Shown here one piece after another: positions 25,406 through 49,172 of a stretch of DNA of 64,000 nt. The stretch spans positions 5,334,062 through 5,398,061 of the forward strand of contig CM055905.1 of NCBI GenBank assembly GCA_029582155.1, read 5' to 3'. Source of the DNA: Panopea generosa. Taxonomy: Eukaryota > Mollusca > Bivalvia > Adapedonta > Hiatellidae. Each line of letters opens with the position of its first letter. Within the stretch, counting starts at the first letter, position 1. The notes below the pieces were generated by a model. It did no database searches and was not told where the DNA came from. It was given only the letters and a program-made list of their open reading frames with translations. Position numbers and translations under genes: made by a program.

Positions 25406-25770
25406 CTAGCCGAACCAAAATGTATCAGCTTGATGTGAACCACCCGAACTTGTCAGTGCTTGAAGACTATCGATGAAATGGTGGTATTCTTCCGCGCTCA
25501 GCGTTCCTTCGTAGAGAGCAGAATTTATCTCCGTCTTCCAATGCGCATACTCCTCTGCAGTTACGTGACCCTTTTTGACCTGGTCGAGGATATGGTCCAG
25601 TAAAGCTGATATGTGATGGTCAGGAGCGTGTCTCTCCGTCGGTACCTCCTTCGACACTTCGTTACTGTGGCCTGGGGGCTCGGCGTGTGCAGTACGCTTT
25701 ATCCGGTGCACTGTTATCGAATGCAACTTTTTCCAGAAAACCTCACCCGTAGGAATATCGTTCAGTTTGT
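25406..25770 (-). CDS. Terminal exon of a secreted-protein gene, paralogue 2b (unknown function)
   Basis: Minus-strand exon with acceptor ttattttattattttag at 25771. It starts with AC, which needs one base from the previous exon (phase 1), and runs to a TAG at 25406-25408: about 121 residues. A preceding G gives Asp. The C-terminal part reads LLDHILDQVKKGHVTAEEYA then HWKTEINSALYEGTLSAEEY, strikingly like the exon at 32783-33027. Two 'GxxTAEEY / GTLSAEEY' helices suggest an internal duplication, and the pattern faintly resembles SHOCT-type short C-terminal helices (weak comparison). N-terminal to it is a basic, dibasic-containing stretch (HRIKR), possible as a processing site. AATAAA on this strand at 25212-25217 would suit as poly(A) signal. 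The open frame upstream of the acceptor (to 25852) is intron. Not recognised as any named family. Confidence 0.6.
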
Positions 25771-25807
25771 CTAAAATAATAAAATAAAGACAAATATAAA
25801 TGAAGAA

Positions 25808-26475
25808 AATGTCACGTGTCTGTAACATAGCAATGCCACGTGTCTGTAACATAGCAATATCAAATGATTATAACATGACACTGTAACGTGTCTGTTACAT
25901 GATAACACCACGTGCCTGTAACATGGCAATTTCACCTGTATGGAATATGTCTGTAAAATATAATGTCATGTGTATGCAACCGTGATACCAATGTCACGTC
26001 TTTGTAACATGACAATGTCACGTGTCAGTAACATGGCAATGTCACGTGTATATCACATGGCAAAGTCACGTGTCTTTAACACGGCAATGTTACGTGTCTG
26101 TAACATGAGAATGTCATGTGTATGTAACATGACAATATTACGTGTCTATATCATGGCAATGTCACATGTATTCAACAGGTCAATCTCACGTCTCTGTAAC
26201 ATAGCAATGTCATGTATCTGTATCATGACAATGACATTTGTTTGCAACATGACAATGTCACGTGTCTGTAACATGGCAATATTACGTGTCTGCAACATGG
26301 CAATATCAAGTGTATTCAACATGTCAATGTCACGTCTCTGTAACATGGCAATGTCACGTCTCTTTTACATAGCAATGTCATGTGTCTGTAACATTGCAAT
26401 GTCAAGTATCTGTAACATGGCAATGTCACGTGTATGTGACATACTAATGGCAATGACACGTGTATGTAGCATGAT
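25808..26475 (-). repeat. 24-bp minisatellite, about 28 units, abutting an acceptor
   Basis: Unit CAATGTCACGTGTCTGTAAC atgg, with many CACGTG E-box-like palindromes. It ends about 37 bp from the splice acceptor of the exon at 25406-25770 and so fills its intron. The 179-residue plus-strand frame is this array read as protein. Confidence 0.9.
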
Positions 26476-26514
26476 TATGATTATGTCATTATGTGTGCTG
26501 TACATATGACACAA

Positions 26515-26582
26515 AGCTGTAGTGGAGGATCAGACCACCCACGGCGCTCTGATCCTAAATCCGATCCTCTACTACTGGACCA
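26515..26582. repeat. Short foldback
   Basis: 'gtagtggaggatcag' and 'gatcctctactac' are inverted about a GC-rich centre (cacccacggcgctctgatcc). About 65 bp; possibly a MITE remnant. Confidence 0.5.
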
Positions 26583-26720
26583 CGCATACCGTACGAGTAT
26601 TGTTTTAACATAAGCCGTATTTGTGTAAACTATGGCCGTTAACAGTATTTTATCTATTGAAAGCATCAAATGTGTTACGGAAATAAGAACGTTAATAGAA
26701 TAAAAAAAAATGTGTTTTAA

Positions 26721-26722
<2 letters not shown>

Positions 26723-45664: not shown

Positions 45665-45870
45665 TTTTTAAAACTGTTTAACGCCATTTTCAACACATTT
45701 CAGGGTATATATGGCCTATCCAGTTTGTATTGGTTGAAGAAGATCTCAGAATGAATCTGATTAGAACCACCGTCCTTCTTTGCGCAAGTAATTGGCAAAG
45801 TTTTTGGAGCAAGCGCCTACGACCTCAGCGTTGAGACGGCACCACAGCCCACTCGGCACGCTCTTGATTC
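45665..45870 (-). mobile_element. SINE family B, best minus-strand copy
   Basis: 'gtttaacgccattttcaaca', 'gggtatatatggcctatcca', 'agaaccaccgtccttctttg' and 'ctcagcgttgagacggc', in the reverse order of the 5918 copy. Confidence 0.75.
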
Positions 45871-46290
45871 AATTTTTGAAAGGGGCATAACTCTGGTTGA
45901 TTAATTGGATGAAGTCCATTTTTGATTCAACTATTCGCTCTGTCACTGTTGTTATTATTTCTGATACCTTGGACTCATGGAACACAGTCAGTATTGTTCG
46001 AAAATAGTATAAGTGGTACAACATATTCCGTTACCCTTCATGAACAGAGACATGGGCGTAGGAGCGGTTCAATTATTGGGGTGGGGGTCAACCTGCTGCC
46101 CCACACCAAACTTGAACATTATGGGTGGGGGTGGGGGCGGCCCCCATGGCCCCTCGGCTCCTTCGCATATGAAAGAGTCTGCTATTTCTTTTCTTGTTTG
46201 TGTCCTGTGAATGTACTACAAAGAACGCCTTTTTATCAGATATTATATATTTGTGTGTATTGTATCGCATCTTTCATTGATTTGCTTTAG

Positions 46291-47534
46291 TATCAATATA
46301 AGCTGTATACAATGAAATGGAAAATAAACATGTTCTACTCAGTTATGGTAGAATAGAAGATATTCCTACTAAACAATATATAGCTTGTAAGCTTCCCATC
46401 ACCGAGGTATTGCTTATAAATAAGAAAAATCCGCACTGGAAGCACATCCCCGCCACCAAATGACGGTTTTGTGTTTCAGCAATTCTTTTTTCTTTCCAGA
46501 AATAAAAGCTAAATACCAAATTTTAATGGAATAAAGATCATACATTCCAGAGTTGTTTTGCCAAGTTTCAGCAAATTCTGTGTGGTATGACATCTGAAAA
46601 TTAAAACTAAAATAACCGCTGATCCACTTATACATCTTGTACAGTGAGTGTAGAAAATTCAGAGTTAATGGCCTTATTTTAGATTCTGCTGTATTTTTTA
46701 CTCTTACTCCGGTCTTTGTTGCATTTTCATATTTTCTTCCTATGTTGCATTTTAATATCTTGTGGGTGTATTTGATGAATATGATAAATAGAATCTGATA
46801 AAAATACTCGCTGCATAAAATCTATGTCGTTCTCATTTTCATGTTAAAAGTACAATACTATATTCCAATTCATTTCGTTTTTTTTTTCGATAACTAAGAC
46901 AAATATTCCAACATATTTCAAATAAAGTTTAAACAATTGCACCTGCCTGTAGCAACTTTATATTTCGCTGATCTTTTTACTATAATGTATTTGTTAAACA
47001 ACACATGAGATTTCTTAGGAAACGTGAACAATGGCATTATGCTGGTGAGCAAAAAGACATCTACGGTGGTATTCACCAACCATTCTAGAGAATAACCTAA
47101 GACTTGAACTCAAGAACAAATATAGAGATAATTTTTTGAGGCCAAAGTGTGCAAGCATGTGGGGACACCTAATATATAGTCAAATGAACAGTTATTCTAT
47201 CTGTCATGGCTAACTAGATATTTAAGGTTGAAATTTGGATTTTCAAGCTCAAGTCTAAGAATAATCATTCTCAACTTGAGAATGATTGGTGAATACGACC
47301 GCAGCATTTCTAATTAAGATAGGGTAATTTAAATTGCTTTTTGCGTTTTTTTTTAAATTTTTATAAACGTTATGCTTTTATCGTTCACCTAGACCGTTAC
47401 TGAGAAAACATCCTAGCCAAATCTTTAAGTCAAATGTGTACTACTACTGTAGAACGTTGTCTCGAACACGGATGGGTGGAACACCACATATAGCTCGAAC
47501 CACTTATCTGGTCCCGGCCAAATTCATATTTTGA
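46291..47534. other. Intergenic, no gene seen
   Basis: AT-rich. Near 47085-47300 'caaccattctagagaataac' and 'attctcaacttgagaatgat' contain short inverted words, without a clear element. Confidence 0.4.
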
Positions 47535-48560
47535 TGTATATGCGTTATTAGACATGATATTTATTTGATTAGTACGTAATTAGACATAATATTTAATTGA
47601 TCAGCGCGTAACTAGACATTATATTTATTTGATTAGTACGTAATTAGACATAATATTTAATTGATCAGCGCGTAACTAGACATTATATTTATTTGGTTAG
47701 TACGTAATTAGACATAATATTTAATTGATTAGTGCGTAATAAGACATAATATTTAATTTAGAAGTACGTGATAAGACATAATATTTATTTTATTAGTACG
47801 TATTTAGAAATAATAATTATTGAAATAGTACCTACATTGATGTAATATTTATTTGAATAGTACATAATTTGATATAATATTTTATTGATTTGCGCGTTAT
47901 TAGACATGATATTTATTTAATTTGTAGGTAATTAGACATAATATTTAATTGATTAGTGCGTAATTAGACATAATATTTAATTGATTAGCGCGTAATTAGA
48001 CATAATATTTAATTGATTAGTGCGTAATTAGACATAATATTTAATTGATTAGCGCGTAATTAGACATAATATTTTAATTGATTAGTGCTTGTTATAAGAC
48101 ATACTATGTATTTGATTAATACATAATTACACAAAGTATGTATCTAATTATCACCAGATTGGACATAATATGTAATTAGTTAGCACGTAATAAGACAGAA
48201 CATGTATTTGATTAGTGCGTAATTAGATATAACATGTATTTGTAGGTAATTAGAAATATTAATTAATTGTTTAGCCCGTAATAAGACATAATATTAAATT
48301 GATTAGTTCGTAATTAGACATACTATTTAATTGATTAGTGCGTAGTTAGACATAATATTTAATTGACTAGCGTGTAATTAGAGATAATATTTTAATTGAT
48401 TAGTGCGTGTTATAAGACATAATATGTCTTTGATTAACACATATCTAATTATCACCTGATTGGACATACCATGTAATTAGTTAGCGCGTAATTAGACAGA
48501 ACATGTATTTGATTAGTGCGTAATCAGACATAATATGTATTTATTTAATTAACCTGTTAT
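47535..48560 (+). repeat. About 32-bp AT-rich satellite, some 32 units
   Basis: Unit 'aattagacataatatttaat' then 'tgattagtgcgt'. Some stretches (47580-47700, 47935-48075) show a two-unit period with 'gcgcgtaa' and 'gtacgtaa' alternating. Confidence 0.9.
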
Positions 48561-49078
48561 TGGACATACTGTTTATCTCAGCCACTATGCAACCCAATTT
48601 TATTCATTTTTTTTTTCAATTCAATAGTTTATTCACTCATTTCATGGTATACATGACAATATGAGTAATAACAAAAATACATACAATATACAGTAGAGGA
48701 TAAATTATATATGATCAGGAAAATGGAATATTGCAAAAAATACTATAGTTATACTTTAAATGAGTATAAAATAATTGTTGTTATTATTGTTGTTGTTGTT
48801 GTTGTTGTTATTGTTGGGTGTTTTTGTTTTGCCAATGGGAGAGTACCCTACATTTATTGAAACTAAATATTCAATGAAACAATCCAGACATTATCAAATT
48901 ATATTATGTAACTGGTATAATGCTAAAACTCAACGACGTTGTTATAATGTGTTGCCAGACATGTTCTTATCTATTTCTTAATATAAAAATAAAAAAGGAG
49001 CACGGTATATTAACTAGCTCACTACAGAAATCATCCTAGCACTTGCTTGGTTACATGTTAACTGTCTTAAAACATTAC
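48561..49078. other. Intron or intergenic, with a TTG run
   Basis: Contains a (TTG)n run at about 48776-48815. No exon seen before the donor at 49078. Confidence 0.4.
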
Positions 49079-49172
49079 CTTGGTTTAGCCTCCTGGTCCG
49101 TTGACGAAGAGAAGCGCCGGACACGATTGTCACCAAGCACAGTAATCCGAAATACACCAATAACTTAAACAT
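49079..49172 (-). CDS. First coding exon with signal peptide, secreted-protein gene
   Basis: Minus-strand ATG at 49172-49170 opens 31 codons and one extra base before a G|gtaatg donor (phase 1). MFKLLVYFGLLCLVTIVSGA is a textbook signal peptide: a Lys, a hydrophobic core and a small-residue cleavage site. SLRQRTRRLNQ follows, with a dibasic/furin-like RTRR. The extra G joins to AT (33027) or AC (25770) to give Asp, so this exon fits both paralogous terminal exons. A TATA-like element on this strand at about 49250-49259 (gcataaataa) lies about 80 bases upstream. The linkage rests on phase, orientation and the secreted, basic character of both parts; the intron to 33027 would be 16 kb. Other exons may lie between. 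Confidence 0.6.

Follow-up and report, generated by a model that had tools for sequence, protein, structure and literature searches.

One signal exon and two paralogous last exons in Panopea generosa: a candidate gene for two related secreted helical peptides

The question raised by the locus described here is whether one gene chooses between two similar last exons or whether each of them belongs to a gene with its own leader. The window analyzed is a stretch of 64,000 nucleotides from the bivalve Panopea generosa (GenBank assembly GCA_029582155.1, contig CM055905.1, positions 5,334,062 to 5,398,061; C12:5334062-5398061 in our genome searches). On its minus strand lie one exon with a signal peptide (exon 1) and, far downstream, two terminal exons, A and B. 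The initial annotation left two readings side by side, alternative last exons behind a single leader or a tandem duplication. The locus is best explained as a minus-strand gene lying between an ABL-type and an EML-type gene, and we consider it roughly 55% probable that this one gene makes two related secreted peptides by alternative last exons. The former either/or thus leans to alternative last exons, while tandem duplication has been weakened.

Exon 1 (49172 to 49079, minus strand), identified by sequence reading, a signal-exon scan, and a genome search, begins with ATG and ends with CCAAG, followed by the 5′ splice site gtaatg (49073–49078; generic donor score, 4.0 bits). Its coding sequence specifies MFKLLVYFGLLCLVTIVSGASLRQRTRRLNQ and leaves a single G over ahead of gtaatg, so that the exon ends in phase 1. 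The product was read as MFKLLVYFGLLCLVTIVSG|ASLRQRTRRLNQ and includes the basic site RTRR; by the −3/−1 rule, the likely cut in its signal peptide is VSG|ASLRQ. The signal peptide was called from hydrophobicity and the −3/−1 rule rather than by SignalP, and the N-terminus of the precursor depends on the inferred splicing. A TATA-like CATAAATA (49252–49259, minus strand), found by consensus match only, lies approximately 80 bases before the start codon and is a possible core promoter. Tandem repeats of a 25-bp unit, about 67 copies in all, occupy 49463–51131, approximately 290 bases upstream of exon 1.

Exon A (33027 to 32783, minus strand) is preceded by TTTTTACAG and starts with AT, completing an Asp codon (G|AT). 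Exon B (25770 to 25406, minus strand) is preceded by ATTTTAG and starts with AC, likewise completing Asp (G|AC). Both share the same acceptor phase (phase 1), and each is open to its own stop: TAA in A after 81 residues and TAG in B after 121 residues, counting the split Asp. AATAAA follows A at 32729–32734 (starting at 32734, 51 bases past the first base of the stop codon) and B at 25212–25217 (starting at 25217, 191 bases past that base), both on the minus strand. LLDHIL.QV.KGHVTA, HWKTEI, and GTL are common to A and B. These readings bear out the initial annotation, which had described the signal exon with its phase-1 end in G (coordinates and sequence agree), the two phase-1 exons each completing Asp, the shared motifs, a stop and a nearby AATAAA for each exon, and the basic sites RTRR, RVRR, and HRIKR, all of which are present. 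A 24-bp minisatellite of about 27 copies (25808–26442), the unit of which contains an E-box-like CACGTG, ends approximately 40 bases short of the exon B acceptor.

A and B are identical at 30 of 60 residues without gaps. In tblastn searches of the six-frame window, they found each other at E 5e-15 (A query) and 2e-14 (B query), and all other matches were at E 0.20 or worse; the likeness is not due to chance. Over the 60 codons, the differences number 21, 19, and 38 at the first, second, and third codon positions, and the NG86 estimates of nonsynonymous (dN) and synonymous (dS) divergence are 0.49 and 1.98, respectively, with dS so near saturation that the dN/dS ratio is rough. Since differences distributed in this way and a dN below dS fit coding exons under purifying selection, the sequences of A and B fit two old, diverged coding copies kept under such selection. 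Compared as DNA, the two regions match within the exons over 77 bases of core coding sequence. A further three strong matches (E 7e-12 or better) are located outside the exons; all three fall on a single target stretch, and they were therefore read as dispersed repeats; four further matches of 16–23 bases are weak (E 0.039–0.48). The genome of the animal itself (1,474,161,289 bases, 1.47 Gb, in 39 contigs) was used as the search space for all genome searches. The B query matched B and A only (E up to 0.001), as did the query of the B core (E up to 10). The A query (E up to 10) matched A, B, and one sequence on contig C5 at E 9.8, which sits in a satellite array and was taken as chance. Apart from this chance match, A and B are the sole relatives found in the genome.

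When the genome was searched with exon 1 (E up to 10), the sole match was exon 1 itself. No second copy was found in the window (best other match, E 0.14) or the genome at the sensitivity of tblastn; the query is short (31 residues) and only first-look candidates were scored, which means that the search may overlook a second leader that has diverged strongly. This uniqueness of the leader weakens tandem duplication and favors one leader with two last exons.

Both strands of the window were scanned for signal exons, defined as a signal-peptide start that obeys the −3/−1 rule and is joined to a phase-1 donor above 3 bits. The scan returned four rows, all of them minus-strand: exon 1, one start at 61900 in the EML region, and two (2680 and 2620) antisense to the ABL exon. 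In a scan with a donor cut-off of >4 bits, three minus-strand rows were obtained, and exon 1 was left out because its donor scores 3.9988. In a control at a donor score of >3.9 bits and a hydrophobicity of ≥3.0, thresholds set after the scores of exon 1 were known, 2 of 40 first-order Markov sequences gave one hit each, and the real window gave two hits on the minus strand (exon 1 and 61900) and none on the plus strand. The widest scan, of positions 25771–49078, reduced 512 ATGs to 48 hydrophobic starts and these to 15 with a phase-1 donor above 0 bits. The highest-scoring donor of that scan (28535, 6.6 bits) is that of a repeat open reading frame (ORF) with at least 148 genome matches. Hence, between exon 1 and B, no equally scoring signal exon with a phase-1 donor was found, save this repeat and a frame inside B. 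The repeat ORF itself (28535–28641, minus strand), ending AHLSRRLTGELL, is part of a dispersed repeat; its 148 matches up to E 10, counted among 150 scored out of 603 candidates, are mostly on contigs C1 to C20, a spread that would agree with about 19 or 20 chromosomes.

The leader's single genome match, the absence of an equal start before B in these scans, and the matching acceptor phases together lean to alternative last exons, and the matching phase and split Asp codon of A and B support one gene. Several points weigh against this reading. The link of exon 1 to A or B, which is drawn from phase, strand, uniqueness, and order, is a putative one. The donor of exon 1 is of moderate strength (3.9988, ca. 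4.0 bits), and the scan with the cut-off of >4 bits passed it over. The interval from A to B contains weaker candidates for a first exon of B, at 30242 (2.1 bits) and 30075/30060/30057 (1.8 bits), and the introns of 16 and 23 kb contain many tandem arrays and leave room for missed exons.

The main rival is a second, unrelated leader for B, that is, a duplication of the whole gene in tandem, with A belonging to exon 1 and B served by a separate promoter and first exon located in the interval that separates it from A. We regard this as unlikely. Being diverged paralogues 7 kb apart, A and B would suit it, as would the hydrophobic starts in the right phase between them: besides the two candidate groups above, these are 29936/29921 (0.5 bits) and 26274/26250 (0.9 bits). 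The 30075/30060/30057 candidates use a GTAAGT donor near 29912, and the 30057 version, the one covered by the uniqueness check, has no other genome match up to E 0.01. However, all of these donors score below the 4.0 bits of exon 1, and of the donors above 3 bits in the widest scan, one is that of the repeat ORF and the rest are internal to exon B. Because exon 1 has no second genome match, the leader of a duplicated copy would have to be unrelated or strongly diverged, and the DNA similarity of the two regions extends only to the core, the presumed dispersed repeats, and the four short weak matches. It is also improbable, in our estimate, that exon 1 is part of another gene while A and B use unrecognised leaders or exons, their products being secreted or not. 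The long, repeat-rich introns and the circumstantial nature of the link speak for such an arrangement, whereas, of the other minus-strand scan rows, 61900 falls within the EML region and 2680 and 2620 run antisense to the ABL exon, and furin-type sites ahead of both cores are in keeping with secretion. Very improbable is an unspliced B gene that starts in frame at ATG 25852 or 25828 and uses a hydrophobic stretch as its signal peptide. It is true that no stop interrupts the frame at the acceptor and that FFIYICLYFIIL is scored as hydrophobic, but this stretch is the polypyrimidine tract of a consensus acceptor, both ATGs lie within the 24-bp minisatellite, and both starts are lost once the −3/−1 signal-peptidase rule is applied. 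Moreover, A has no in-frame ATG upstream, so an unspliced B would give the pair differing structures.

If one leader indeed serves both last exons, exon 1 would provide the signal peptide and a short pro-segment and would be spliced to exon A, ca. 16 kb away, or past A to exon B, ca. 23 kb away. The leader would be removed in the secretory pathway, and a furin-like or prohormone convertase may then cut after RVRR in A (33005–33016, minus strand) or after RIKR in B (within HRIKR, 25694–25708, minus strand). RTRR, RVRR, and RIKR are convertase-type sites, and the furin-type ones lie upstream of both 50-residue cores. The predicted mature products, for which cleavage and amidation are assumed, have 73 residues in A (32786–33004, ending CCLFG) and 95 residues in B (25409–25693, ending FWFG), each including a C-terminal Gly. 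Each peptide would consist of a compact three-helix domain and a flexible tail ending in Phe-Gly. An amidating enzyme could convert this end to a C-terminal Phe-amide, and the two products may act as paralogous extracellular signals, hormone- or cytokine-like, picked by the choice of splice or polyadenylation site.

Both A and B end in Phe-Gly-stop, and their tails are otherwise unlike. On the minus strand, 10 of the 182 stop-to-stop ORFs of at least 50 codons end in Gly and six end in a hydrophobic residue plus Gly, A and B being among the six. Terminal Gly preceded by a hydrophobic residue is a usual substrate of the amidating enzyme, and the shared ending is a possible amidation signal. In the core of both A (32828–32977, minus strand) and B (25454–25603, minus strand), a 21-residue internal repeat was detected by a segment score that 4 of 2,000 shuffles reached. 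Together with the structural models, the repeat outlines helix–GHVT–helix–GTLT–helix in A and helix–GHVT–helix–GTLS–helix in B. The AlphaFold model of A has helices at residues 6–20, 25–41, and 46–59 (mean predicted local distance difference test score [pLDDT], 78.5), and that of B has helices at 25–41, 46–62, and 67–82 and a short low-confidence one at 87–94 (mean pLDDT, 71.7). The core blocks have pLDDT values of 82–90 and the tails are of low confidence; the G-x-[VL]-[TS] turns stand between helices one and two and between helices two and three. The 50-residue core is thus predicted to form three helices. The Phe-Gly-stop ends, the internal repeat, and the three-helix core are additions to the initial annotation.

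From these sequence features, the products are probably small helical secreted peptides of a hormone-like kind. That they form a new, unnamed family of peptide hormones, folded into three helices and amidated at the C-terminus, with one gene choosing between two paralogues by last-exon use, is a tentative proposal to which we give less than an even chance. It is tempered by the Gly of both tails, which has no adjacent basic pair and is directly followed by the stop, by the two cysteines in the tail of A where B has none, and by the models, which were built on a two-sequence alignment (A plus B). Furthermore, since A and B are homologous, their shared Phe-Gly ending does not count as two independent events. 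The peptides might instead be structural or defence proteins of the blood, mucus, or shell with a Gly that is not amidated, which would be compatible with any gene structure. A folded three-helix core within 73–95 residues exceeds most amidated neuropeptides in length, but a prohormone accounts better for the Phe-Gly-stop common to A and B and for the convertase-type sites, and we hold this alternative to be somewhat unlikely.

The initial annotation recognised no family, and this now extends to the databases and literature searched. In Pfam, the A core had no hit up to E 1 and the B core had SHOCT-like hits below threshold only. The PDB sequence search and the fold search with the models gave no significant match. 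HWKTEI, KGHVTA, and HWKTEL were absent from the open-access text searched, and LLDHIL occurred there only in unrelated work. For the tail strings (FWFamide, CCLFamide, FWFa, FWF-amide, DTFWF, and DTFWFG), the matches listed were to FWFa only and all were unrelated. These string searches span open-access text and not sequence databases and thus do not bear on whether the family is unpublished.

The SHOCT family is mainly bacterial, and its pattern is a helix–G-x-[IVL]-[TS]-x-E-E–helix turn. This turn of the SHOCT and SHOCT-like hairpins (PF09851, PF22746, and PF08044) occurs twice in the B core. However, all hits were to the B core and below the gathering scores (15.5 bits against a cut-off of 27 for PF09851), the A core had none, and a signal exon is proposed here. 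The likeness to a doubled SHOCT-type hairpin gives a hint of the shape and does not indicate membership. UPF0291 protein YnzC (3bhp) also counts among the closest known systems.

The ends CCLFG and FWFG are not Arg-Phe-Gly, which places A and B outside the RFamides. The gene layout is already known in molluscs, although the peptide family could not be named. As described in PMC4208409, two FMRFamide-type messages of Lymnaea and Helix have only the 5′ exon in common, and two messages of Haliotis asinina have a common signal-peptide exon and both encode FMRFamide and FLRFamide. The proposed gene resembles these in that one 5′ or signal exon would be combined with alternative downstream exons to give different secreted peptides. 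FMRFamide genes encode many short RFamide copies, in contrast to the single predicted helical domain, lacking RFamide, that each exon specifies here; in addition, the terminal exons of this locus are paralogous to each other. The orcokinin A/B, calcitonin, and CNMa genes of insects also undergo alternative splicing, according to PMC4237046, and are likened to the present locus by layout, one gene giving two kinds of secreted peptide by splice choice, and not by sequence. PMC6425005 catalogues 65 molluscan families, egg-laying hormone / DH44 among them.

At the left end of the window, a long plus-strand ORF (2376–4607) contains an F-actin-binding domain (PF08919; E 2.7e-22 in the Pfam search) and is presumed to be the final exon of a kinase gene of ABL type. 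At the right end, an EML-like exon (57434–57760, minus strand) matched PF23414 at E 3.6e-9; its 36.8 bits are below the whole-domain cut-off of 90, as may be the case for a single exon. The ORFs beside it, down to one ending at 55900 (region 55900–63385, minus strand), appear by eye to be more EML exons. A 60-bp tandem array of about 17 copies (36771–37797), in which three frames are open for approximately 300 codons, is probably not a gene.

If the family is widespread and already present in proteomes as uncharacterised proteins, the finding would merely be an annotation. If the proposed reading is true, the locus would provide an orphan pair of secreted signals whose processed form is defined and which could be taken straight into peptidomics and receptor tests, and the molluscan layout of one leader with alternative last exons would be one that also takes paralogous folded domains as its alternatives.

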